IMG/VR virus record: IMGVR_UViG_3300032050_000187
Span: 1 to 52,895 of that record
DNA length: 52,895 bases
Strand: one strand, 5' to 3'
From: a virus
Under the pieces are notes generated by a model. It worked only from the letters and a program-made list of their open reading frames with translations, was not told the DNA's origin and searched no databases. This document shows, one piece after another, positions 18,462 to 47,675 of the stretch. The position numbers and the translations under genes were made by a program. Every line of letters begins with the position of its first letter. Position 1 is the first letter of the stretch.

Positions 18462-19190
18462 ATGTTTGAAAACAAAAACACCCGCCTTGTGCGACTACCC
18501 CCGCGCCTGTTGTTGGCCGAAGCCAACCGCCTGACCAAAGGGGTGCCGTACCTGCAAGGCACGCTATTTAACGCAGTAATGCAGAAGAAGAAACTGGCCC
18601 GCAGTCAACGCAACAAGAAGGCAGCACACGCCCGCTTGTGGAAACCCATCATCAACACCGCTAAATACGAGCGCCGAAATGTGCGCGTGATGCACGATTA
18701 CCAAGCCCGCTTGCCCGAACCGACCCCTCGCCTTGAAGCATTGGGTTTGTATCTGGTGGTACTGGATAAGGTAATCGAGCAACTCGAAGCGCACATTACC
18801 TTGGGGGAATACACGCCAGCGCAGTATGCAAAGGAACACAACCTGCCCAATGTGGGGGTGCACTGGTCTGACTGGGTGAAGGAATCCCACAAGCGCAACC
18901 TGACCGCAGTCTTTGCCGCACTCCCCCGAACAGGGCGCAAGAACAAGCACCCCTTTGCCCGCACAGTACCCAAGCCCATCTTCGAGAAGCAACACGCCCA
19001 ACTTGTCAAACGCACAACCAGCGACCTGGACAACGAGCGCAAGCGCTTGGCCGATGACCCGAACGACGGTAACTCATTCAAAAGAATAAAACAGATGATG
19101 CGGGTGCTGGCCGTGCTCAAAGATATGAAAGAACCCCAAGCCCTGCCCAACACATGGCATGGGCTGGCCCACCAGAAGGATGAGGAATAA
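18462..19190 (+). CDS. Basic early protein, unknown function
   Basis: 242 aa from MFENKNTRLVRLPPRLLLAE. Highly basic, with many Lys/Arg/His; KKKLARSQRNKKAAHARLWK in the first third, a central helical part (LVVLDKVIEQLEAHITLGEY), and NWHG-like aromatic residues near the end. No known fold recognised. Weak but present RBS (GAAAGG). Nucleic-acid binding would suit its charge. It has its own promoter, and a hairpin follows one base after its stop. Confidence 0.6.
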   Translation: MFENKNTRLVRLPPRLLLAEANRLTKGVPYLQGTLFNAVMQKKKLARSQRNKKAAHARLWKPIINTAKYERRNVRVMHDYQARLPEPTPRLEALGLYLVVLDKVIEQLEAHITLGEYTPAQYAKEHNLPNVGVHWSDWVKESHKRNLTAVFAALPRTGRKNKHPFARTVPKPIFEKQHAQLVKRTTSDLDNERKRLADDPNDGNSFKRIKQMMRVLAVLKDMKEPQALPNTWHGLAHQKDEE

Positions 19191-21526: not shown

Positions 21527-21595
21527 ACACGAGTATGGGTTAGCGGTGTGCCCTCTCACACCGCGCTTTCAATTAGTAAAAACTGGAGAAGCAAA

Positions 21596-22930
21596 ATGAA
21601 ATTATTGTTTAGCACATTCATGATGGCCGCTGATGTTGTGTACTGCCACCGCGCATGGTTCAGGCGTGAGACCCGCAAGTACAAACTGCACCCTGTTGTT
21701 GAGGCCGCGCTCGATGTGTGCCGCCCTGATGACTGGCATCAGTTGTTGCTTGAGTGGCCGCACATATCCGAGGGTGACCCATCCCGCTTGGCATACACAC
21801 GAGACGAGCGTGCAGGCGAGGCCGACAGACAGACTGTCACGACCATCGGCAAGTATCTGTTCAGGCACTTCAGCGATATGCCCGACCACAAGATGCGTGA
21901 CTTGGCCGCGCTGTATGGCTCCAATGGCGAGTGCAGGTTCGTGCACACCATGGCTGAGATGCTGCACCACTTGAAGCGTGGGCCGTCATCTTGTATGACT
22001 GGCGACAGGGACTACCACTGTGTCGATGGCGTGTTGCGCCATGCCTATGAGGTGTATGACCCGAGCCTTGGCTGGCACATGGCCGTGCGCTTGGAGTTCG
22101 GCAAGACTGTGGGTCGTGCGCTGTGCTGTGGCAAGACCTATGTGCGCTCTTACAAGTACAACCCGAATGGAGGTGGCTCACCCACTGACGAGACGCTTGA
22201 AGCGTGGCTTGAGCAGCAGGGGTACGACAAGGAGTGCACATGGGGTGGCTTGAAGATCATGCACTACGAGACACGATGCGGCGACACACTGGCACCCTTC
22301 ATTGACGGCGAGGACAAGTACGCTACCAAGAAGGGCGACTACTTGGTCATCACGGATGACAGCGATGCCGAGTATCAGTGCGACAACACAGGCGGCACAG
22401 CCAGTGAGAACCGAGGCACACCATGCGAGGACTGCGGCGACCGCGTGGACGATGGCGATGGGTACTGGGTCGGCCCACACGAGGAGACGATGGTGTGCCA
22501 GAGTTGTTGCAACCACCACTACACATATGCGTACAGCAGGCGCAGGCATCAGGCGTACATCGGCAATGACTTTGTGGTGTATGTCGAGTCGCAAGACCAG
22601 CACTATGACGAGGACTATCTCGACGACAACGACATCGTGTTGCTTGAGAACGGCGACTACGAGCACACCGACAACGCTGTGGAGATTGACGGCGAGTGGT
22701 TCCACATCGAGGACGAGAACATTGTCTGTGACCACAACGGCGACTACCAACTGCTCAACAACTGCGTGAAGTTGGAGGACGGCGAGTACGCCCTGGCCGA
22801 GGAGGCGTGGCTGTGCGCCGGGTCTGCCGACTGGTACCTGAGCGATGATGTTGACCCTGTGGTTGTGGATGGCGAGACCTATCATCCCGACTATGCACCC
22901 GAGCAAGAAACCGAAGAAGAAGGAGAATGA
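21596..22930 (+). CDS. Large zinc-finger protein with acidic C-terminal repeats
   Basis: 444 aa. The ATG follows ACTGGAGAAGC; the frame extends 16 codons further up without an RBS. The N-terminal 270 residues hold scattered Cys and His. CEDC (277-280) and CQSC (301-304) form a likely zinc ribbon. From about 350 to 435 come six degenerate repeats of about 15 residues (NGDYEHTDNAVEID, GEWFHIEDENIVCDHN, GDYQLLNNCVKLED, GEYALAEEAWLCAG and so on). The protein is very acidic and ends in a run of Glu. Its stop overlaps the peptidase gene, so the two are probably made together. I know similar tails in other aquatic phages but no function. Confidence 0.7.
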   Translation: MKLLFSTFMMAADVVYCHRAWFRRETRKYKLHPVVEAALDVCRPDDWHQLLLEWPHISEGDPSRLAYTRDERAGEADRQTVTTIGKYLFRHFSDMPDHKMRDLAALYGSNGECRFVHTMAEMLHHLKRGPSSCMTGDRDYHCVDGVLRHAYEVYDPSLGWHMAVRLEFGKTVGRALCCGKTYVRSYKYNPNGGGSPTDETLEAWLEQQGYDKECTWGGLKIMHYETRCGDTLAPFIDGEDKYATKKGDYLVITDDSDAEYQCDNTGGTASENRGTPCEDCGDRVDDGDGYWVGPHEETMVCQSCCNHHYTYAYSRRRHQAYIGNDFVVYVESQDQHYDEDYLDDNDIVLLENGDYEHTDNAVEIDGEWFHIEDENIVCDHNGDYQLLNNCVKLEDGEYALAEEAWLCAGSADWYLSDDVDPVVVDGETYHPDYAPEQETEEEGE

Positions 22931-22932
22931 GT

Positions 22933-24024
22933 ATGAACAAGAAATCAATTCTGTATAAGACCCTGGCCCGTGCGTTGTCGCTCAAGCGTCCGCATGGTGG
23001 CGCGACTGTGGCGGGCTTCACGCAGTGGCTGGTCTCTCGCCTGCCTGACTTGGCCGAGGTGTTCACCGATGCTGCTGGCAATGTGCACATTGATATGCGT
23101 AGTAGTGACGACCACCGCACGCTGTTCGTGGCCCATGTGGACACTGTGCACAAGGACGAGGGAGCCAACAAGTTCCGCAAGACACAGTACAAGTGGTACG
23201 CGGATGGCTCTCAGCTTGGCGCGGATGATGGTGCGGGTTGTGCGATGCTCATGCACCTGATGCACAGCGGTGTGCCTGGGTATTACATCTTCACGCAAGG
23301 CGAGGAGCGTGGGGGTATCGGTGCCAAGCACATATCCAAAACATACGCAAACCTACTCAGTCAGTTCCAGCGTGCCATTGCGTTCGACCGCAGGGGCGTG
23401 GATAGCGTCATCACGCACCAAGGCTGGGGTCGCTGCTGTTCGGATGTGTTCGGCCTTGCCCTGGCTGATGCGCTCAATGTCGATGAGCGCTTGATGTACA
23501 TGCCTGACGACACCGGGGTGTATACCGACACTGCCGAGTTCACCGACATCATCCCCGAGTGCACCAACATCAGCGTGGGCTATGACTTCGAGCACAGCGA
23601 CCGCGAGGAGCTTGATGTGTTTCACTTCAACCTGTTGGCCCAGCGTTGCGCGTTGATCGACTGGGACGGCCTGCCCTCTGAGCGTGACCCCACTGTGCCT
23701 GACCTCAAGGACATCCACGACACAGGCTGGAGCAAGGGCTGGTGGACCCAGTACGACAAGGAGATGGACAAGTACGACTACGCTGACATGGTGGCTGACA
23801 GCTTCAGTGAGGCCATCGAGGAGGCGCGTGCTGGGTACCCTGAGTACCTGCTTGACCTGATCGCCGAGGCGGCGTACCCCGAGGATGTTGACTTGGCCTT
23901 GCGGTTCCTCGACAAGCGGCGTGTGACCAAGGACTTGGTGGACGAGATAGACCGCATGGCCAAAGCATACGACCCCGACACGGCCTTGCTCAATGCGTTC
24001 GATGCCCTGTACGCAGAGGCTTGA
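22933..24024 (+). CDS. M20/M28-like zinc aminopeptidase
   Basis: 363 aa from MNKKSILYKTLARALSLKRP. Numbering here counts an ATG two codons earlier as residue 1; the chosen start has the better RBS spacing (GGAG, 7 nt). All metal and catalytic motifs of M20/M28/M42 peptidases are in order: HVDT (His70, Asp72), GADDG (Asp100/101), GEERGG (Glu126/127), FDRRG (Asp154) and EHSDREELDV (His223). These enzymes use two zinc ions to remove N-terminal residues or cut small peptides. The C-terminal 120 residues are acidic and not of the usual family. A cytoplasmic peptidase in a phage early region is uncommon. Substrate unknown. Confidence 0.8.
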   Translation: MNKKSILYKTLARALSLKRPHGGATVAGFTQWLVSRLPDLAEVFTDAAGNVHIDMRSSDDHRTLFVAHVDTVHKDEGANKFRKTQYKWYADGSQLGADDGAGCAMLMHLMHSGVPGYYIFTQGEERGGIGAKHISKTYANLLSQFQRAIAFDRRGVDSVITHQGWGRCCSDVFGLALADALNVDERLMYMPDDTGVYTDTAEFTDIIPECTNISVGYDFEHSDREELDVFHFNLLAQRCALIDWDGLPSERDPTVPDLKDIHDTGWSKGWWTQYDKEMDKYDYADMVADSFSEAIEEARAGYPEYLLDLIAEAAYPEDVDLALRFLDKRRVTKDLVDEIDRMAKAYDPDTALLNAFDALYAEA

Positions 24025-24561: not shown

Positions 24562-24780
24562 ATGCACTACCACACACCGCCCTACGACACGGGCAAAGTA
24601 AAGATCGGTCTGCTGTACAACGGCAGGCCCAGCACCATGACGCGAGACGAAGAGCTTATCCAGGCTGCACTGCTTGGCATACGCCCTGATTGGTGCTACT
24701 TCATCGAGAGCGCATTGATCTATGTCGCTGTCGTATTCACCCTTTTATCCGCCATCTTTTTTCTGTTAGCCAAGGACTAA
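24562..24780 (+). CDS. Small membrane protein
   Basis: 72 aa. A soluble N-terminal part (MHYHTPPYDTGKVKIGLLYN) is followed by a single membrane segment near the C-terminus (YFIESALIYVAVVFTLLSAI, then FFLLAKD). First gene behind the promoter at 24511. The topology leaves most of the protein in the cytoplasm. Unknown role. Confidence 0.65.
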   Translation: MHYHTPPYDTGKVKIGLLYNGRPSTMTRDEELIQAALLGIRPDWCYFIESALIYVAVVFTLLSAIFFLLAKD

Positions 24781-24782
24781 AA

Positions 24783-25436
24783 ATGCCCGACTTACAAACC
24801 GCACTCACCACTGCAATCAAGCACCAAGTTTTAACAACAACCATCAACGAATGGGACAAAGAGGAGCAGCAGACCATGCAAGCACAAACACAACCACAGA
24901 TACAACCCATGCAAACACAAACTCAGATCAACGGCAACAGCAAACTCACCCTCACGGGCAACCTATCCAAAGACATCTTCGTCTACATCAGAGACAACCC
25001 TGGCTGCTTACGCGCCGATGTACGAAAGGTGTTTATGGCGGCGGGTTTTAAGGAGGCTTCAATAGGCTCTCTTGTTTCGCAGATGGTGCGCAACAAAATG
25101 GTGAGCATCAACGAGGTAGGCAACCTCGAAGCAAAACGCGTTTACTACAAGCCCCTGATTAGCGGGGCCAAGAGAAAAGAGATGAACAAAAAGCTGGGCA
25201 TAGCACGCGACAAGCCCGCATCAAAGCCCGCAAAGCCCAAGGCGCAAGGCATAGCCGCGCTGGCTCCCGAGCCTACCCAGAGTGCAGACAAAGGCCAGGA
25301 AGCGCTGGATAAGGTGCTGGCCAAGCCTGTGCGTGAAGCGCGTGCTGTCTACGATGCGATGTGCATACTGCGTGACCTGGATGTGGGCGAGGCGCGGTAT
25401 GTGTACGCCGAGTTGCACAAACTGTTCGGAGGTTGA
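24783..25436 (+). CDS. Putative winged-helix DNA-binding protein
   Basis: 217 aa. A Gln-rich linker (residues about 33-50) separates a short N-terminus from LTGNLSKDIFVYIRDNPGCL, RADVRKVFMAAGFKEASIGS and LVSQMVRNKMVSINEVGN, then KRVYYKP. That is the three-helix plus wing pattern of small winged-helix domains. A Lys/Pro-rich linker and a helical C-terminal part (LRDLDVGEARYVYAELHKLF) follow. It may regulate phage transcription. The start follows the previous stop by two bases. Confidence 0.6.
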   Translation: MPDLQTALTTAIKHQVLTTTINEWDKEEQQTMQAQTQPQIQPMQTQTQINGNSKLTLTGNLSKDIFVYIRDNPGCLRADVRKVFMAAGFKEASIGSLVSQMVRNKMVSINEVGNLEAKRVYYKPLISGAKRKEMNKKLGIARDKPASKPAKPKAQGIAALAPEPTQSADKGQEALDKVLAKPVREARAVYDAMCILRDLDVGEARYVYAELHKLFGG

Positions 25437-39918: not shown

Positions 39919-40093
39919 GAGGGGGCAGGGGTTCTTTGTCCCCTGCCTCGATGTGGAACGCACCCGCGAGGAAGGGCTGCGCGAAGCGGTTAAGTGCAGA
40001 TTGAAGGATGCCCGCGCTGTGGTTGGCATCCACCGGGGTTTGATCGGCGTTGTGTTCAGCCGAGGTAACCTCGGGCACTCTCCGCCAGCTTGA
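39887..40093 (+). CDS. Last early gene, small conserved-type protein
   Basis: 68 aa, MTIHYPWQQLERGQGFFVPC then LDVERTREEGLREAVKCRLK. The form YPWxxLxRGxGFFVPCLDxxRxREEGLRxAxxCRLxDARA recurs in other phages as I recall. It starts 32 bp inside the end of the primase gene and runs 38 bp into the giant late gene on the other strand, so the two arms collide here. A stem GGCAGGGG/CCCCTGCC (39924-39947) lies in its coding region. Confidence 0.6.
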   Translation: MTIHYPWQQLERGQGFFVPCLDVERTREEGLREAVKCRLKDARAVVGIHRGLIGVVFSRGNLGHSPPA

Positions 40094-43000
40094 TGCGCAG
40101 TTGCTGCAACTTGTCCAGCTCTTCGCGCTTCTTGTCTGGTGTCAGGTTAGACGCTTTGATGGCGTTCATGGCCTTCGTGATGGTGCTCAACTGCTCTTGG
40201 ATGTTGCCCGCCACAGCCCCAGCAGCAATCTCTTTGGAGTTCTTTTGCAAGAACTCTCGGGCCTCAGACATGCGCCCGTCCTTGACCATATCCTTGAACG
40301 TCTTGTCGATCTGCTGAACTTCCTGCATGCGGTCGTATGTGGCACTCACAATACCAGCGGCATCGTTGGGCTGGAACATGGAGCCGATCACAGGCGTATC
40401 GGACAACCGCTTGGTAGCCTGCTCTGGCGTGCCCTTGGGCGGTGAGGGCATGGCAAAGTTTAAGGACTGCGCCAACGCAAGGCCCATTGTCCCGGTGTAA
40501 CCGCGAACCAAGTTTTCAATCTTGAGCGGGGATGTGCCTGTCAGCATACCAATTTGCTTGGCTACTTCAGAAGTGTTGTCGCGGAAGCGGTACTCAGGCA
40601 ACATCTGTTGCTCGGCCCTGGACTCGAGTGGGCGCTCGGTAAAGAACGAGTAGTTGGCCACGTTCTCAATGATGGGCTTGGCCAAGGCAGGCATCAGCAA
40701 GGATGTGCCGCCAGGGATGGTCTGTATGGCGATGCTCTTGAACGCTTTATACGCTTCTTCTGCGCCGCGCTCATTGGCCATGCTGTTGACCAGCGCCTCT
40801 GGGATGCCCTTAAAGATGTAACCAATCTCAAACGGCACCGGGATGCGCAATGGCTCATCCAAGCCTGGGATGCGCACAAAGAAGTTGCCGTACTTTTGCT
40901 CGGGCGTGGCGTTTTTGTACGCTTCATCGTCTTGCATCAGCATGGCGTAGGCTATCGCCGTGCCAGACAAAAGCGCTCCTCGGCGCAGCAACTTGCCCTG
41001 GATGTCCAGGCGCTCGTTCAATGGCATCTTGCCTGTCAAAGCGCGGTAGAGCACATCCAAACTCTGCACCTGTGCGTTGAAGAATGGGATGGCCGTGGAC
41101 AAGAACCGTGCCGATGGTGACAGCCCCTTGCGGTTGAAGTTCATGGATTCCAACGACATGAGCGTGGCTTCCATCTCCGACAAGCCCTGGTTGATGTAGG
41201 AGTTGTACTGGGCGCGGCGGGTTGCCGCGTCTGCCTCCATTGCAATACCTTCGGCACGGGCCACCAGTTGGCTCAAGCCCAGCTTGCCGTCTTGGAAATC
41301 TTTGAGGATGCGGGTCAGGTCTTCGTTGGTGCCCGTGAACACTTGCCCACCCGTGATACCCCTGGCTTCCAGCTTCTCTTTGGTGGCCGAACCGCCCAAC
41401 TGACGGATAGCGCCCATGATTGGGGTGAAGTTTGCGCCAGACAGTATGGGCGCAGCCACTGAGTCGCGGAACAACTGCCTGACTGGGTACAACGGACTGA
41501 GCATGACACCCTTGCGCACCATCGTGGCTGCGTAGCCCATGGCCCGGACAATTGCAGAGTTGTTGACGGGGATACCCGCCATGCCCTTGACCAGCAAATC
41601 CGCTGGGATACCTGTCTTGTCGGTCTCCACCAGCACGTACTTGTCTTCGCCCTTGAGTTTGAAGCTGACCACATCAGGGCCAGAAGTCGGGCTGATGAAG
41701 CGCCCCAAGCCCATGTCCACCAGATCAATCATGGTGTTTTTGGTAGCTTGGTTGCGCAGCGCAGCGTCCAGCAGCACCGATGTGTTCTGCACAGAACTGG
41801 TCAGGAAGTCGTAGATTTTCTGGTCGCCGCCAATCAACTGCTGCAACTGGGGCTGGTCTTTCAGGTTGCCCACCTTGAACGTGCCCTCGCCGCCAATCAC
41901 CAGTTCAGCGTTGCCGTTGCGCTCTCGGTAGTACGGGATGTAGTCGTTGGTTGCGGCCAGACGCTTGGCTTCCTCTGGGGAGAGAGCGCCTGTGTCTTCC
42001 ATGAACTTCATCAAGGAGCGGTTGTACTCGTTGTACTGCTTACGCGCCTTTTCAAACACGGCCTTGACTTCCGGATTGCTGTCGATCTGGCTTGCCGCAC
42101 GCTGGATTTGCTCTTTGGAGATGCCGTAGTTGAGCTTGTCGTAGCCCACGTTGGGGTTCTCTGCGCGTTTGTTGGCCAGATACAGCGTGAACAAGCGGTT
42201 GGCTGCTTCGGCATTCATGCCAGGAGCGCCCTTGAGGGTCTCGACAACGCCTGCCAGATTCGGTCCTTCCACGCTTTCAATGAGCTTTTCAATCTGCCCA
42301 TCAGCCCGCTTGTGGTCAACCAACTGGGGCACACCACGGGCCACCGACTGCTGCACAAACGACATCTTCTGGTCGGCCATGCGCAGGTAGTACATCATGC
42401 GCGTACCCTTGAATGGGTCGGCCATCTCACGGGCAATCTTCTCCAGCGGAGCCAAACGGTCAAGCCATTGTGTGCGCCCAGCCAACCCCAGGTTGGACTG
42501 TATCTGCTGCCCGATGCTCTTAGGTTTGGCAATCAGTTGGTCGGTTGTGGCCAACGCGTCTTCAAAGCCGGGAGCCTTGGCGGTGCGGTACGTGGCTTCG
42601 CCTGTGGCAGCTTCGCCGCCTAATGCTCCCACACCTTCTTGCACATACTTCCGAGCGTTGGCCACGATCTGGCGTACCTCGTTGTCAGTAACGCCTTTGA
42701 CACCAAATGTGTTGCTGAACCACTGCTTGATGGTTTCAAACAAACGACGCAACGCACTGCGACTGTCTGCGGTAGGTTCGGCACCTGTCTCGGCCATGTC
42801 GGCCAGCACTTCCTCAACGGCCACTTCGCGGGACAAATTCTTGTTGGCCCCCATCTTGGCATCAGCTTCACGGCGCACCGTGACGTTGCCGTCGTACAAA
42901 GAGTTCATGGTCTTGGCGTATGTACCGCCAAGCATCTCGCGCAGGCCGAAGTGGCCAGCCACTTCGTGCGCAATCGTCAAACCAACGTCATTGCCTGTGT

Positions 43001-46000
43001 GCAAGTTGGATGCCACTAAATACACGGTCTTGGTGTTGGGGTCGTACACGCCGGGGATGCGCCCAGTAACGCCGTCCTTGGCGGCTTGGTCTTGAATTCG
43101 CTGTGGCAGCTCCGACTCGTTCTCAACAACACTGACTTCAGGCGTAATGGCCCAGTCACTTAAGATGCGGTCAACCAAGCGCTTGACTTGTTGCGACTGC
43201 ATGCCGGGGCCAGCCTGGATGGAAGTGCGGAACACGCCCTTGCGTTCTGCTTTAAGTTCCAAGTTTTCTTCAGCTTCTTTGGCCTTGGTGTATGTCAGCG
43301 TAGCGGCTTTGGCTGCGCCTGTCACCTTGGATTGCCGTTGCCGCAAAGCACTGAGCGTGCCTTTGAGCGTGGCTTCTTTGGCTTCCAAGTCTTTCATCAA
43401 CGGCGTGAGTTTGCCCTTGACCTTGGCTTTGCCTGTACTGCGCAGGAACTGCATGCGCCGTTGAACGTCTGCCAAATCTGTGTTGACCTTCATCAAACGG
43501 TTGGTCACCGCAACGCCAACTTCTTCCAACGACACCTGTGGGCGTGGCTGTGTAACGCGAGACCCCAAAACTTCTTTTACCAGCGACGCTTGCTTAACAG
43601 GCTTGAGCTTGGGGGCTTTCTCGCCTTTGGCTTTGCGCCGCCTTGCGGCCACCACGGCTTCTGCCGCAGCGCGTCTGTCTTCGGTGTCTCTGCGTGCTTC
43701 TTCATCTTCCCGCGTCCGCAATTCAGTCTTGACCAACGGCGCGTTCTGGAACACGTTTTCCAGTTTGCTTTCTTGATCGGCAATCTTTTGCCGCAGCTCT
43801 GCCTTGGTGTCTTCGTTTGTGGCCTTGTCCAGTTGATCGTTCAAGCTGCCAATAGCGCGGCGAATCTTGGACATCTCCTGGCGCATCTGCGTGGTGTCTT
43901 TCTCCAACCGCACGCCTTCCAGCCCCAGTCCCTCACGCCCACGCTGCGCAGCTTGGCGCAACCGGGTTTCTTCTGCCGTGGCTTCTTGTTCGGCTCTGCG
44001 CTTTTCAGCTTCTGCCCCGGCCTTCTCAACACGTTCAGCCTCACGCTTTTCTTGCGTAACCTTATCCAGCTCAGCTTTGGCTTCGTCCGCTTCTACCTGG
44101 GCCTTCTCAAACTCTTTAAGTGCGGGCTGAGCAATATCGGTGTACGCTTTAATCTCTGCGCCAATCTGTGCCGCCAAATCTTCCAGCGGAGTAACAACGG
44201 CTTCTAGGTCAGCTAGTTTTTTACGCAGTGCAGGTTCTTGCGCCAACAGGTTGTTGATCTTCAACAACGTGCGCATGTCTGACGGCTCTTGCAAAACTGC
44301 CGCTTTTACGTCATCAATTTCCCGCAACGCTTGCTGCAAAGGAACAATGTGTTCGTTGCGTGCATCTTGGGCTTCTTGACGAACCGCTTCCAGATCGGAG
44401 CGCATCTCGTCTTTCCAACCCAACGCCAGAGCGCCTGTTTCCCGCGCCTTCTTGACCTGCTTGTCGTGCTTGGTTTTGGCGGCGTTGTATCGGTTTGTGA
44501 TGGTTGGCAGCGCTTTACCAACGGACTGCAATGCGGCCAAGTTGTCTGCGCGTTGTTTTTGAATGGCATCGCGCATGCCCTGAACGTCTTTGGAGTCCAG
44601 CAGCTTTTGAAAATTCGACGGCGTGGCACGCGCCACTTGTGCCCCGGCTTCGGGGAACATCTCAAGCTGTGGCTGGGCTTCTGTGTTCTTTGTGCGGGTC
44701 TTGCCTTCTAAGTCAGTGAAGGTTAACTTCTCACCCCTGGCAACCGCAGCGGTCTCTTCTTTTGACAACGGCGCTGCCGCGCTGCGTCCCGACACTTCCT
44801 GCGCCTTGAGCATCTCGCCCAGGTCACGCACAGCAAACGGGTTGGGCAGGTTGCCTTCGGCCACCATGGTGGCTTGCTCCCGTGCCAAGGAGATGAACTC
44901 GGGGTCGTTGGTGGTCTCCAACGCATCCCGCAACCGGGTCAACAAATCAACGGTGGCAGCGTCTGCTTTGGTTGGAGTGCCTGTTGCAAGAAAGCCAGGG
45001 TTGGTGTTGCCCGACACTTTGGCAGCTGCTAATATTTTGGCCAAGTCCGCCAGAGTGTTTGCTTCTTGTTTCTCTAAAACAGGTGCCGCACGGGTGCGCG
45101 TCTCGGCACTGCGCAACACCATCTCAATCACATTCAACGCACGTTGCTTCTCAGTCTTGGCTTCGCGTGGTTCTCCGCGCAGCGTCAGCTCATCAGGCGC
45201 AGCAATCCGTGGCCCCGCACCGCTGGGCTTCTTGGTCTTGCCTTCAAGATCGACTTGGCCCTGCTCTAACATCCGCGTAGCGGCATTTTGCAAGTTCTGG
45301 TAGACGGCATCCCGTGTTTGACCTTGCAGCACTTTGACGGCTTGGGCTGGCGCACCAAATGTGCCGTAGCGGCTTTCCAACTCATTGAGCGCTTCCAAAG
45401 AACGGGCACGGGCTTCGGCCTTTTCCCAGTCGGCCATCTCAGGCAAACCAAACGCTTTGCGTCGCGCTTCAATCTCGGCGGCATGCGCAACTACAAAGGC
45501 TTCTTTGGCTGCGCTGATCTGTGCTTCACGTTTGGCAGGCAAAACCAGTTTGCCAGTGCGTGCCGTATCCAGTGTCTTAATCAGCCCAAGCAACTGTATG
45601 CGCTGGGTGTCAGCATGCTGATCGGCAGCGGCTTCTTGTGCCCGCTCTTCAGGCAGCATGCCTTCTTGTAATTCACGCGTAAGTTTTCCACGACCTTCCA
45701 CAGCCCCTTGCTCTTTGGCTGTGCGCATCTCCGTGAGCAACGCTTCTTGCGTTTTACGGTCCCTTGTGATGCGTGCAATCTGAAATTGCGTCTGCAAGTC
45801 TTTAAGGTTCTGGGATGGCGATGCGCCAACACCTTCAACAACCCGCCCAGGGGTAATGCGCCCATTGGTCAACGGCAGCGTCTGAATTAACTGGTCAACC
45901 AGGGGCATTTCTTCTGGTTTCTCGGGCGTCTCAATGATTTCCTGCTGCTTCGACGGGAACCGCTCAGACAGCAGCTTTCCAGTATCACTGGCATAACCAC

Positions 46001-47675
46001 CTTCGGGCAACACCACACGACCCGGCTCCTGGCCCAAACGCTGGATGCCCAGACGCTCAGGGGCCACACGACGCGCAATTTCTGCGTCTTGTGCAATGCG
46101 CTCTTCTTCGGCTCGTTGGGCTTCCAACGCTGCTTGCTCTTCATCCTCAACCGTTTCTAAGCGAACTTCTTTGGCTGCGGTGGTGGCTGCGGCCCCTGCT
46201 TGTTTGCTTTGCTTGAGGCTGGCGTTGACCTTAAGCTTGAGCTTGTTGTACAGCGCGTCGGTTTTTGTGTCGCTCAAACCGGGGATGGGCGGGCGCTCTT
46301 CAACCAGCTTGCTGGCCTGCGCCGTATCGCGCATCAAGTACCCTAGCACATCCTCTGTGGTGAACCCATACGGGCGGTTCTGCGCGGCTTGAATCTGCGA
46401 CACAGCGTACTGCTGCAACGGTGACAGAGGCTTTTCCGTCTCGGTCGGACCTTCGCCCAGGCGGTTGATGAAGAACTCTTCAGCGCTTGGCTGGGGTCTT
46501 TCTGCGGGGATTTTGGCCCCTTGCTGGTCAAGGAAGAACTCCTCGGGAGTCATTGCCTTGACGCGCTCGTACTCTGCCTGTGCCTTGGCACGCTCCTCGG
46601 CTTGCGCTTCGTACTGCTTCAAAAACGCCGCCTGCTCCTTGGCCAGCCGTGCGGCTTGGTCCTTGGCTGCTTTGGCTTGCTTTGCAGCTTCTCGCTTGGT
46701 TGGCTCTGCAACCGCTTCCTCTTCTTCAGGCGCTACTCCTGGCACACGCAAGGTGGGTTCGGGAATGGCCTCGGCTTCGCCAAGGGCGGGAGGAACAAAG
46801 GCTTCGGGGGTTTGTGCAGTTGGCTGCGCCGCTACTGCGCCAGCAGCGGCTGGGCCTTTGGCACGGCGACCAATGGCCATGTCAAGCAGACCTTGAACCA
46901 ACGCGCCAGTAGCACCGCCGTATGCAGCGGACTCGCCCACCTGCTCAATGATTGCTTGCTCTGGTTTGTAGATGCCTTTGGCAATCAAGTTCTGGGCAAC
47001 TTGTGATGCGGCTTCTTGTGCAGCTTCCTCGCCACCTGCCGTCAGTGCTCGTTTAACCGCAGCAACAGCACCTGCTTGTACGGGAGCCGCCAAACGTCCA
47101 AGAATCCTGGCCGGGGCAAACATCTCTGTTAAACCCACCGCACTGCCAAGACCAGTAGCTAAAGACCGTTGATCTGCGCTTGCTTCGCCTTGTTCAGCCC
47201 TTACTCTGGCCTCACCCGCGCCAGCACCGACACCCAGCCCGGCCATGCCCACACGCCCTGCAACACCCAACGGCCCCATGGCCAAAAATGGCGCAACAGA
47301 ACCAACCGATTCGCCGAGCTTTCGCCCGACAGTCTCTTCGTACCCAGGAGCGGCAGCAAACGGTTCGCGTGCCGAAGCCGCCAAACTGCTGATTGTTTTG
47401 CGTGCAGAACGTTCTTGCTCGTCGGGCAGCAGCGCGGACAGACCCGTGCCAGCCGACTCTGCCAAACCAATAGCGCCAGGGACAAGACCCTTGGCAAACT
47501 CTTTGATCTGGCCCCCAACGGTTGGGGTTTCTTTGGGTTTTTCTTTTTTGGTGTCGTCTAGCGTATCGCCTTCGGCGATCATGCCCCTAGCAATTTGAGC
47601 CAAGCGTTTTGCTGCTTCGGTGTCTCCAGCAGCATCGGCATTGCGGAGTGCTTGAAAAACTTGGCTCAGTTCCAT
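40056..47675 (-). CDS. Giant 2539-aa virion/ejection protein with zincin domain
   Basis: A single 7.6-kb gene. The N-terminus is followed by Gly/Ala-rich, partly hydrophobic segments (residues about 60-280). A very long Ala/Glu/Lys coiled-coil part spans about 300-1450. A zinc metallopeptidase domain has AHEVAGHFG (His1570, Glu1571, His1574) and a later VEEVLADMAE as third ligand. The C-terminal 800 residues (FIGURE-like helices with MLSPLYPVRQLFRDSVAAPI, MNFNRKGLSPSARFL) match the LPD38-type region of large polyvalent proteins. These are packed in the capsid and ejected with DNA; the peptidase and other domains act in the host. RBS weak. Confidence 0.78.
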   Translation of the reverse strand: MELSQVFQALRNADAAGDTEAAKRLAQIARGMIAEGDTLDDTKKEKPKETPTVGGQIKEFAKGLVPGAIGLAESAGTGLSALLPDEQERSARKTISSLAASAREPFAAAPGYEETVGRKLGESVGSVAPFLAMGPLGVAGRVGMAGLGVGAGAGEARVRAEQGEASADQRSLATGLGSAVGLTEMFAPARILGRLAAPVQAGAVAAVKRALTAGGEEAAQEAASQVAQNLIAKGIYKPEQAIIEQVGESAAYGGATGALVQGLLDMAIGRRAKGPAAAGAVAAQPTAQTPEAFVPPALGEAEAIPEPTLRVPGVAPEEEEAVAEPTKREAAKQAKAAKDQAARLAKEQAAFLKQYEAQAEERAKAQAEYERVKAMTPEEFFLDQQGAKIPAERPQPSAEEFFINRLGEGPTETEKPLSPLQQYAVSQIQAAQNRPYGFTTEDVLGYLMRDTAQASKLVEERPPIPGLSDTKTDALYNKLKLKVNASLKQSKQAGAAATTAAKEVRLETVEDEEQAALEAQRAEEERIAQDAEIARRVAPERLGIQRLGQEPGRVVLPEGGYASDTGKLLSERFPSKQQEIIETPEKPEEMPLVDQLIQTLPLTNGRITPGRVVEGVGASPSQNLKDLQTQFQIARITRDRKTQEALLTEMRTAKEQGAVEGRGKLTRELQEGMLPEERAQEAAADQHADTQRIQLLGLIKTLDTARTGKLVLPAKREAQISAAKEAFVVAHAAEIEARRKAFGLPEMADWEKAEARARSLEALNELESRYGTFGAPAQAVKVLQGQTRDAVYQNLQNAATRMLEQGQVDLEGKTKKPSGAGPRIAAPDELTLRGEPREAKTEKQRALNVIEMVLRSAETRTRAAPVLEKQEANTLADLAKILAAAKVSGNTNPGFLATGTPTKADAATVDLLTRLRDALETTNDPEFISLAREQATMVAEGNLPNPFAVRDLGEMLKAQEVSGRSAAAPLSKEETAAVARGEKLTFTDLEGKTRTKNTEAQPQLEMFPEAGAQVARATPSNFQKLLDSKDVQGMRDAIQKQRADNLAALQSVGKALPTITNRYNAAKTKHDKQVKKARETGALALGWKDEMRSDLEAVRQEAQDARNEHIVPLQQALREIDDVKAAVLQEPSDMRTLLKINNLLAQEPALRKKLADLEAVVTPLEDLAAQIGAEIKAYTDIAQPALKEFEKAQVEADEAKAELDKVTQEKREAERVEKAGAEAEKRRAEQEATAEETRLRQAAQRGREGLGLEGVRLEKDTTQMRQEMSKIRRAIGSLNDQLDKATNEDTKAELRQKIADQESKLENVFQNAPLVKTELRTREDEEARRDTEDRRAAAEAVVAARRRKAKGEKAPKLKPVKQASLVKEVLGSRVTQPRPQVSLEEVGVAVTNRLMKVNTDLADVQRRMQFLRSTGKAKVKGKLTPLMKDLEAKEATLKGTLSALRQRQSKVTGAAKAATLTYTKAKEAEENLELKAERKGVFRTSIQAGPGMQSQQVKRLVDRILSDWAITPEVSVVENESELPQRIQDQAAKDGVTGRIPGVYDPNTKTVYLVASNLHTGNDVGLTIAHEVAGHFGLREMLGGTYAKTMNSLYDGNVTVRREADAKMGANKNLSREVAVEEVLADMAETGAEPTADSRSALRRLFETIKQWFSNTFGVKGVTDNEVRQIVANARKYVQEGVGALGGEAATGEATYRTAKAPGFEDALATTDQLIAKPKSIGQQIQSNLGLAGRTQWLDRLAPLEKIAREMADPFKGTRMMYYLRMADQKMSFVQQSVARGVPQLVDHKRADGQIEKLIESVEGPNLAGVVETLKGAPGMNAEAANRLFTLYLANKRAENPNVGYDKLNYGISKEQIQRAASQIDSNPEVKAVFEKARKQYNEYNRSLMKFMEDTGALSPEEAKRLAATNDYIPYYRERNGNAELVIGGEGTFKVGNLKDQPQLQQLIGGDQKIYDFLTSSVQNTSVLLDAALRNQATKNTMIDLVDMGLGRFISPTSGPDVVSFKLKGEDKYVLVETDKTGIPADLLVKGMAGIPVNNSAIVRAMGYAATMVRKGVMLSPLYPVRQLFRDSVAAPILSGANFTPIMGAIRQLGGSATKEKLEARGITGGQVFTGTNEDLTRILKDFQDGKLGLSQLVARAEGIAMEADAATRRAQYNSYINQGLSEMEATLMSLESMNFNRKGLSPSARFLSTAIPFFNAQVQSLDVLYRALTGKMPLNERLDIQGKLLRRGALLSGTAIAYAMLMQDDEAYKNATPEQKYGNFFVRIPGLDEPLRIPVPFEIGYIFKGIPEALVNSMANERGAEEAYKAFKSIAIQTIPGGTSLLMPALAKPIIENVANYSFFTERPLESRAEQQMLPEYRFRDNTSEVAKQIGMLTGTSPLKIENLVRGYTGTMGLALAQSLNFAMPSPPKGTPEQATKRLSDTPVIGSMFQPNDAAGIVSATYDRMQEVQQIDKTFKDMVKDGRMSEAREFLQKNSKEIAAGAVAGNIQEQLSTITKAMNAIKASNLTPDKKREELDKLQQLRIKLAESARGYLG

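Follow-up and report, generated by a model that had tools for sequence, protein, structure and literature searches.

A predicted two-metal peptidase and its conserved partner in phages and plasmids: a candidate host-directed gene pair

In KP34-like and PhiM1-like phages a peptidase is one of the few early genes to bear a name, and the large gene that precedes it is annotated "hypothetical" in the reference records examined. Do these two genes belong together, and on what might they act? The question is raised here by IMGVR_UViG_3300032050_000187, a single IMG/VR virus record of 52,895 bases, taken over its whole length and referred to as the window. The window comes from a tailed phage: terminase and portal genes lie on the minus strand, while a plus-strand block starting at about 18.4 kb contains small genes, the two genes in question (P1, the partner protein, and P2, the peptidase), further small genes, and then replication genes, with matches to families of DNA polymerase, exonuclease, helicase and primase/helicase. 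A first interpretation from the letters alone, indicated below as the sequence-only reading, had proposed that the pair may modify or degrade host peptides, or act in host defence or signal control; taken as a whole, that interpretation is partly supported.

Because the two genes precede the replication genes and occur on phages as well as on plasmids, our preferred answer, a tentative one, is that P1 and P2 may constitute a host-directed two-gene module, with both proteins acting on one target. The host-directed character is suggested by the position and distribution of the pair, its description as a transferase plus a peptidase by structure models; that the target is shared is what we infer. 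Such a view would give the unnamed P1 family a partner, a tentative fold and an invariant Cys-Met site, and a conserved module common to phages and plasmids offers a testable idea about the first acts of invading DNA in the cell.

Occurrence of the pair in phages and plasmids

P1 and P2 are real and adjacent: both open reading frames, as delimited by the sequence-only reading, are confirmed (Table 1). Judged by profile matches, almost every proteobacterial carrier examined has the two genes side by side, and one conserved Cys-Met core is found in P1 across these carriers. The environmental relatives considered are the best 80 of 88 and the best 80 of 311, with some contigs present in both sets, and the profiles used for the counts were built from part of the counted loci. 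When P1 is looked for within 600 bases of P2, it is found upstream in 77 of the 80 P2-seeded viral loci; the other three have no room for it (77 out of 77 with room). Conversely, P2 adjoins P1, on the downstream side, in all 82 P1-seeded loci, 81 of them viral and one located on a contig of a Burkholderiales metagenome-assembled genome. Chromosomal P1 homologues were found in one of 398 genomes of the phylum, which is the seed genome itself; the scan of genome contigs for P1 gave one locus.

The same arrangement is found in all seven reference phages examined (SFN6B, SU552A, VP93, PPWS1, Ep4, Pasto and BDU-MI-1): a large "hypothetical" gene precedes the peptidase and is homologous to the P1 core, with profile probabilities of 96.0-99.8%; the 15 controls for the P1 core (other phage proteins in eight cases, reversed sequences in seven) were all negative, at 0.8% or less. 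Numbers of peptidase and partner records were also compared by organism name, as totals rather than record by record, using two partner queries. The Escherichia-infecting phage Minorna is one carrier of the partner gene. With query P0001, peptidase and partner records are 230 and 231 for Klebsiella, 42 and 42 for Vibrio, 10 and 10 for Escherichia, 4 and 4 for Shigella; with query P0002, 51 and 51 for Pectobacterium, 3 and 3 for both Dickeya and Pseudomonas. When the P1 and P2 models were compared with predicted viral structures, both were matched in Shigella phage Buco and in Pseudomonas phage YMC11/06/C171_PPU_BP; Podoviridae ctwV53 weakly matches the P1 model.

Four plasmid records contain a P2 relative, and in all four a P1-core gene lies directly before it. 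In Limnohabitans pTEGF4 a relaxase gene is found about 4.5 kb from P2, with N-6 methylase and toxin-antitoxin genes nearby. In the conjugative Sphingopyxis pMC4 the pair is flanked on one side by genes annotated as ParB-like and DUF2958, on the other by successive toprim, DUF2493, HEPN and Abi genes. Methylobacterium pVL1_2 features two successive sets (L179:1905-11150), the first with two P1 homologues and P2, the second with P1 and P2. The fourth record, from Shinella, is an unannotated 4.6-Mb sequence filed as a plasmid. Co-occurrence elsewhere had been set beforehand as the test of the proposed pair, and it is borne out in the four collections (77/77, 82/82, 7/7 and 4/4). Host-directed genes acting at the entry stage would be expected to occur in phages and conjugative elements alike; the main text of a paper on plasmid leading regions, in which the word "peptidase" is absent, gives this no direct support (PMC11541004).

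The peptidase gene by itself is already known, as the phrog_4191 family, and 368 of 50,697 phage records contain a P2 relative. Conserved-gene tables of PhiM1-like and KP34-like phages include both the peptidase and the "hypothetical" gene before it (PMC6115819, PMC4411677). The claim that a soluble exopeptidase is rare among phage early genes thus does not hold for several groups, the KP34-like and PhiM1-like phages of those two papers among them. Among the matches listed from open-licence PMC papers, judged by titles and abstract starts, the pairing is undescribed, as are the conserved core and model of P1 and the plasmid copies.

Conserved features of P2 and P1

P2 clearly belongs with the phage "peptidases" of phrog_4191 (KP34p11, PhiM1_10, PPWS1 gp07), whose genes, in the reference records examined, are likewise preceded by a large early gene and followed by the primase region. 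The profile match (E 1.2e-66) covers residues 11-286 of 365; P2 differs from the family by an extra C-terminal part, at about residues 285-361, mostly helical in the model. Pfam Peptidase_M28 scores 25.4 bits on P2, above its gathering cut-off of 21.3 (the member from phage Pasto falls just under it, at 20.3), while M20, at 17.1, is below the cut-off of 24.6.

All peptidase motifs named by the sequence-only reading are present in P2, and the metal ligands hold after alignment. The family alignment has 89 rows, one of them the query. H70, D72, D100, E126, E127 and D154 are each identical in all rows but one, a gap (88 rows); D101 is identical in 86 (one gap) and H223 in 86 (two gaps), so that each residue of the complete two-metal ligand set is kept in 86 to 88 rows. 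Roles for these conserved metal-site residues are assumed by us from the PepT family: Glu126-Glu127 would provide the general base and a metal ligand, and Asp154 is presumably a metal ligand as well.

The P2 model has a mean predicted local distance difference test score (pLDDT) of 87.5. It superimposes on the PepT-like structure 3rza with Z 25.8 and root-mean-square deviation 2.6 over 239 residues, and on 3gb0 with Z 25.2; the structural matches span about residues 1-250, with 23% identity to the PepT type over the common core. With Peptidase T and PepT-like enzymes of the M20 group P2 shares the catalytic fold, and the HxD, DD, EE and final His motifs align. M20 enzymes bear a lid domain between the last metal ligands. 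P2 is unlike them in this respect: only 69 residues separate Asp154 from His223, which leaves no room for a dimerisation lid. M28 enzymes are lidless, as is P2, but its closest solved structures are PepT-like rather than M28. The model therefore supports the description of P2 as a lidless PepT/M28-like two-metal peptidase, for which catalysis is predicted.

P1 has no match in Pfam or NCBIfam, nor, by sequence, to solved structures at E up to 1; its only PHROG match is weak (E 0.059). When 62 P1 proteins were compared with Pfam, only scattered weak matches appeared, none common to more than five members. Seven residues are invariant across 20 very diverse homologues: C133, M134, Y154, R174, P234, D237 and C277. 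The zinc ribbon motif reported for the 444-residue protein is present, as C277-x2-C280 and C301-x2-C304, with C277, C280 and C304 invariant in the 62 proteins. Of 70 close relatives, 52 show the strict two-pair C-x2-C pattern; it is not found in BDU-MI-1, Ep4, PPWS1 and two Methylobacterium copies. Six repeats of about 15 residues had also been described. Their repetition is beyond chance, the self-alignment score being 71 against 30.6 +/- 7.0 in shuffled sequences (none of 200 shuffles reaches 71), but a simple pattern counts five units; in the model they form a row of successive short strands. Emphasis had at first been given to ribbon and acidic repeats, but both vary among the relatives: by alignment, the constant part of P1 is the Cys-Met core.

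Purifying selection looks to be acting on both genes, as the ratio of nonsynonymous to synonymous substitution rates (dN/dS), calculated against four relatives, is 0.27-0.44 for P1 and 0.15-0.29 for P2, in each case with dS above 1 in two of the four comparisons. P1 evolves faster than P2 by this measure. Of four parts of P1, residues 261-330, which include the ribbon, show the highest dN in three out of three comparisons; such fast change would suit a part in contact with a target.

The acidic end of P1 lends itself to a different explanation. Residues 331-444 contain 38 D/E and a single K/R, and could mimic DNA, blocking a restriction enzyme or another enzyme of defence that binds DNA, with P2 trimming P1 or acting separately; in phage Pasto, an ArdA-like antirestriction gene adjoins the pair, which also speaks for the host-directed reading. 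Tail charge, however, is not constant: basic residues outnumber acidic ones in BDU-MI-1 (29 acidic, 33 basic) and in one Methylobacterium copy (20 acidic, 30 basic). The peptidase, moreover, is left unexplained, and we consider DNA mimicry quite improbable.

Ribbon and acidic character together recall, to us, LysW, and a scheme may be imagined in which this part of P1 carries an amino acid or small acyl group that P2 releases, like the M20 enzyme LysK. The LysK structure 5xoy does match P2 (Z 22.5), and [LysW]-lysine hydrolase weakly matches the PPWS1 peptidase by profile (E 0.013). Yet in the records examined no neighbouring gene is annotated as a LysX-type ligase (no profile search was aimed at one), an end of the acidic-(any)-Gly-Glu type is present in only 13 of 84 P1 proteins, and in the window the purine-rich end of P1 is already accounted for by the start signal of P2. 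The scheme is, in our judgment, very unlikely.

The P1 core and the host-directed reading

According to the host-directed reading, P1 and P2 would be produced shortly after the entry of phage or plasmid DNA into the cell. P1 would add or bind an acyl or aminoacyl group on the target, or recruit the target via its tail, and P2 would take off the N-terminal residue or an amide-linked group from the same target; as a result, a host protein or peptide-like signal would be moved out of its defensive or normal state as the invader begins replication. A precedent, in part, is Rac of phiKMV-like phages, an early phage GNAT tied to proteolysis of a host protein; unlike P1/P2, Rac is predicted to be a canonical GNAT and is held to work by way of host proteases (PMC7552054). 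Neither the P1 core nor P2 has a match in the first 12 kb of phiKMV.

The transferase part of this reading comes from the AlphaFold2 model of P1, in which the core weakly resembles GNAT-fold acyl- and aminoacyltransferases. The model has pLDDT 89.4 and a predicted template modelling score (pTM) of 0.53, so that the overall arrangement is less certain than the per-residue model. The best Foldseek matches in the PDB are Sba18 (E 0.044) and FemX (1xe4; E 0.047, prob 0.91), followed by acetyltransferases and LF-transferase. In VIA-align, about 38 of the 50 best among 444 chains with Z of at least 2 are acetyltransferases by title; FemX, MprF, A-PGS, RibT and Eis, found among the structural matches, we take to be GNAT-fold, while the titles of 3i9s, 3frm, 1z4e and 3ld2 are uninformative on fold. 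The similarity to GNAT-fold enzymes (FemX, LF-transferase, Sba18, RimI), of weak score, is limited to residues 110-217 of the model; the invariant Cys-Met pair, the ribbon and the acidic repeats are additions in P1. The P1/P2 module is set apart, being filed neither with M20 nor with GNAT. The P1 model is also matched by a phage "amidoligase" and by a "LIM domain" protein, and A0A6M5CDE3 (534 residues), which matches the P1 model as well as the P2 model, may join a P1-type part and the peptidase in one chain.

A number of results weigh against the host-directed reading, several of them through the fold of P1. No Foldseek match of P1 in the PDB falls under E 0.001. Structure prediction, suggested at the outset for the pair and run per protein, gives a PepT-like fold for P2 (Z 25.8) and only a weak GNAT resemblance for P1, whose best Z in VIA-align is 7.7 (residues 110-217 matched), where the aligner cautions that values below 8 may reflect merely a common arrangement. 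Profile comparison of the P1 core gives 2.0% for LF-transferase, at most 0.6% for acetyltransferases and at most 0.2% for FemAB-like proteins, with reversed controls at 0.5% or less; two of the three positive controls worked (FemAB/acetyltransferase 52.0%, FemAB/LF-transferase 65.3%, LF-transferase/acetyltransferase 0.5%). A GNAT origin of P1, as tried by sequence profile, is thus unsupported, at 2.0% at most. The acetyl-CoA loop Q/R-x-x-G-x-G/A, between strand 4 and helix 3, is not at its expected place in the window P1; it is correctly placed in three of 12 divergent homologues (SFN6B, SU552A, BDU-MI-1), while the remaining 37 matches to the pattern among 84 P1 proteins sit at other places. 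Nine of the 12 feature R-x-Y-G after the fourth strand. Because of the profile result, the GNAT-like fold and the readings that build on it were graded down, and peptide salvage slightly up: on balance, we still lean somewhat towards a GNAT-like fold for the P1 core.

Other points against the reading concern defence and distribution. None of the PADLOC families matches P1, P2 or seven other proteins at E up to 1; PADLOC-DB being a library of defence systems, this null says little on counter-defence. The P1 core is not matched near the P2 relatives of Thermus phage G20c, Brevibacillus phage Jenst, Lactococcus phage P087 and Bacillus phages FADO and vB_BcoS-136, nor at one of the four places in the huge phage LR756502 where P2 relatives lie, in stretches of 8.5-45 kb each; P2 can therefore work without P1. 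Conversely, a Bradyrhizobium plasmid carries a P1-core gene with no peptidase match within the 12 kb viewed. As far as surveyed, P1 appears to be tied, as a partner, to the proteobacterial branch. In P087, the peptidase gene gp23 and gp45 were considered as a pair and rejected, the two genes being far apart: gp45 (L277:24178-25140), a possible remote relative of the P1 tail, recalls P1 by an S-C motif and by a tail rich in cysteine; it is matched over 34 columns at 62%, and has no match in the hidden Markov model search; the PepT-like gene is unlinked to it.

The strongest rival explanation is peptide salvage, where a tripeptidase-like P2 would supply the making of phage proteins with amino acids cleaved from host peptides, and P1 would be a regulator or scaffold. 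Exopeptidases mostly act on small peptides, which suits salvage as well, and the nearest solved structures of P2 are PepT-type peptidases. The Gram-positive and Thermus phages, where P2 relatives have no P1 core in the vicinity, point the same way. Salvage leaves unexplained, however, why proteobacterial carriers retain a partner with an invariant Cys-Met core, and why plasmids carry the pair; we regard it as somewhat unlikely.

The position of the pair bears on a further rival, a protease of virion or head maturation with its helper. Some phage peptidases do process virion proteins (PMC7824862). P1 and P2, however, lie ahead of the replication genes and are not encoded on the same strand as terminase and portal, and the plasmid copies have no virion genes among the annotations in the 45-49 kb viewed, which makes this explanation extremely improbable.

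The host-directed reading may also be given a narrower form, in which P1, as a divergent GNAT-fold transferase, and P2, as a lidless PepT-like amidohydrolase, are a portable "write and erase" module. Such an entry-stage counter-host system, carried by lytic phages as well as conjugative plasmids, would install, edit or strip an acyl or aminoacyl mark on a host protein or signal. This narrower form is unlikely.

Gene starts and neighbouring genes

Coordinates of the features are reported in Table 1. The start of P2 had been placed so as to overlap the stop of P1. The ATGA overlap does exist, at 22927-22930, but ATG 22933, two nucleotides past the P1 stop, is more likely the start, since AAGGAG lies 7 nucleotides upstream of it and only one nucleotide upstream of ATG 22927. 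This AAGGAG still belongs to the coding sequence of P1, whose acidic end is therefore in part the start signal of P2. P1 and P2 are probably translationally coupled, and their position in the block suggests early expression.

Table 1. Coordinates of P1, P2 and their features in the window; P2 residues are numbered from ATG 22927
Feature	Coordinates	Strand	Basis
Putative P1 ribosome-binding site GGAG	21585..21588	+	sequence
P1, partner protein, 444 residues	21596..22930	+	open reading frame, homologues, dN/dS
P1 core part, GNAT-like in model, residues 111-217	21926..22246	+	model, structure comparison
P1 Cys133-Met134, invariant pair	21992..21997	+	62/62 and 20/20 diverse homologues
P1 P-[YF]-x-D-G motif closing the core, residues 234-238	22295..22309	+	P234, D237 invariant in 20/20
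P1 putative zinc ribbon C-x2-C ... C-x2-C, residues 277-304	22424..22507	+	sequence
P1 acidic repeats, residues 331-430	22586..22885	+	self-similarity; short strands in model
Putative P2 ribosome-binding site AAGGAG, within P1 3' end	22920..22925	+	sequence
P2, 363 residues from ATG 22933 (365 from ATG 22927)	22933..24024	+	Pfam M28, phrog_4191, model
P2 His70-x-Asp72, metal ligands	23134..23142	+	family alignment
P2 Asp100-Asp101, bridging-ligand site	23224..23229	+	family alignment; aligned to 3rza, 3gb0 motif
P2 Glu126-Glu127	23302..23307	+	family alignment; aligned motif
P2 Asp154	23386..23388	+	family alignment
P2 His223, final metal ligand	23593..23595	+	family alignment

Two further plus-strand genes of the window, 18462-19190 and 24738-25436, have no Pfam match, and relatives of them are found in 94 and 86 of 157 environmental loci, respectively. 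On the minus strand, positions 40056-47675 encode a protein of 2,539 residues with a Pfam LPD38 domain (E 8.4e-31), that is, a large polyvalent protein, of a kind which we assume to be delivered into the host.

Other genes recur near P2 relatives. A DUF3150 gene is located downstream of P2 in 17 of the 157 loci, at a median distance of 1.3 kb (L153:4045-4914), and an AAA-ATPase-like gene, below Pfam cut-offs, in 16 of them, at a median of 2.1 kb (L151:5790-6860); the latter may be of the MoxR type, which is a guess of ours. The Thermus phage peptidase is found near genes annotated as Lon/chaperone and vWA. A 642-kb uncultured phage genome (L185) features four P2-like places, and the one viewed lies, with no P1, between genes of the glutamyl-tRNA synthetase and CTP-transferase-like types. 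A class I Glu/Gln-tRNA synthetase-like gene is also found in Methylobacterium pVL1_2, about 2.8 kb past the second set; these synthetase genes, near the huge-phage P2 and the Methylobacterium pair, were given no weight, although they would suit a P1 using aminoacyl-tRNA.

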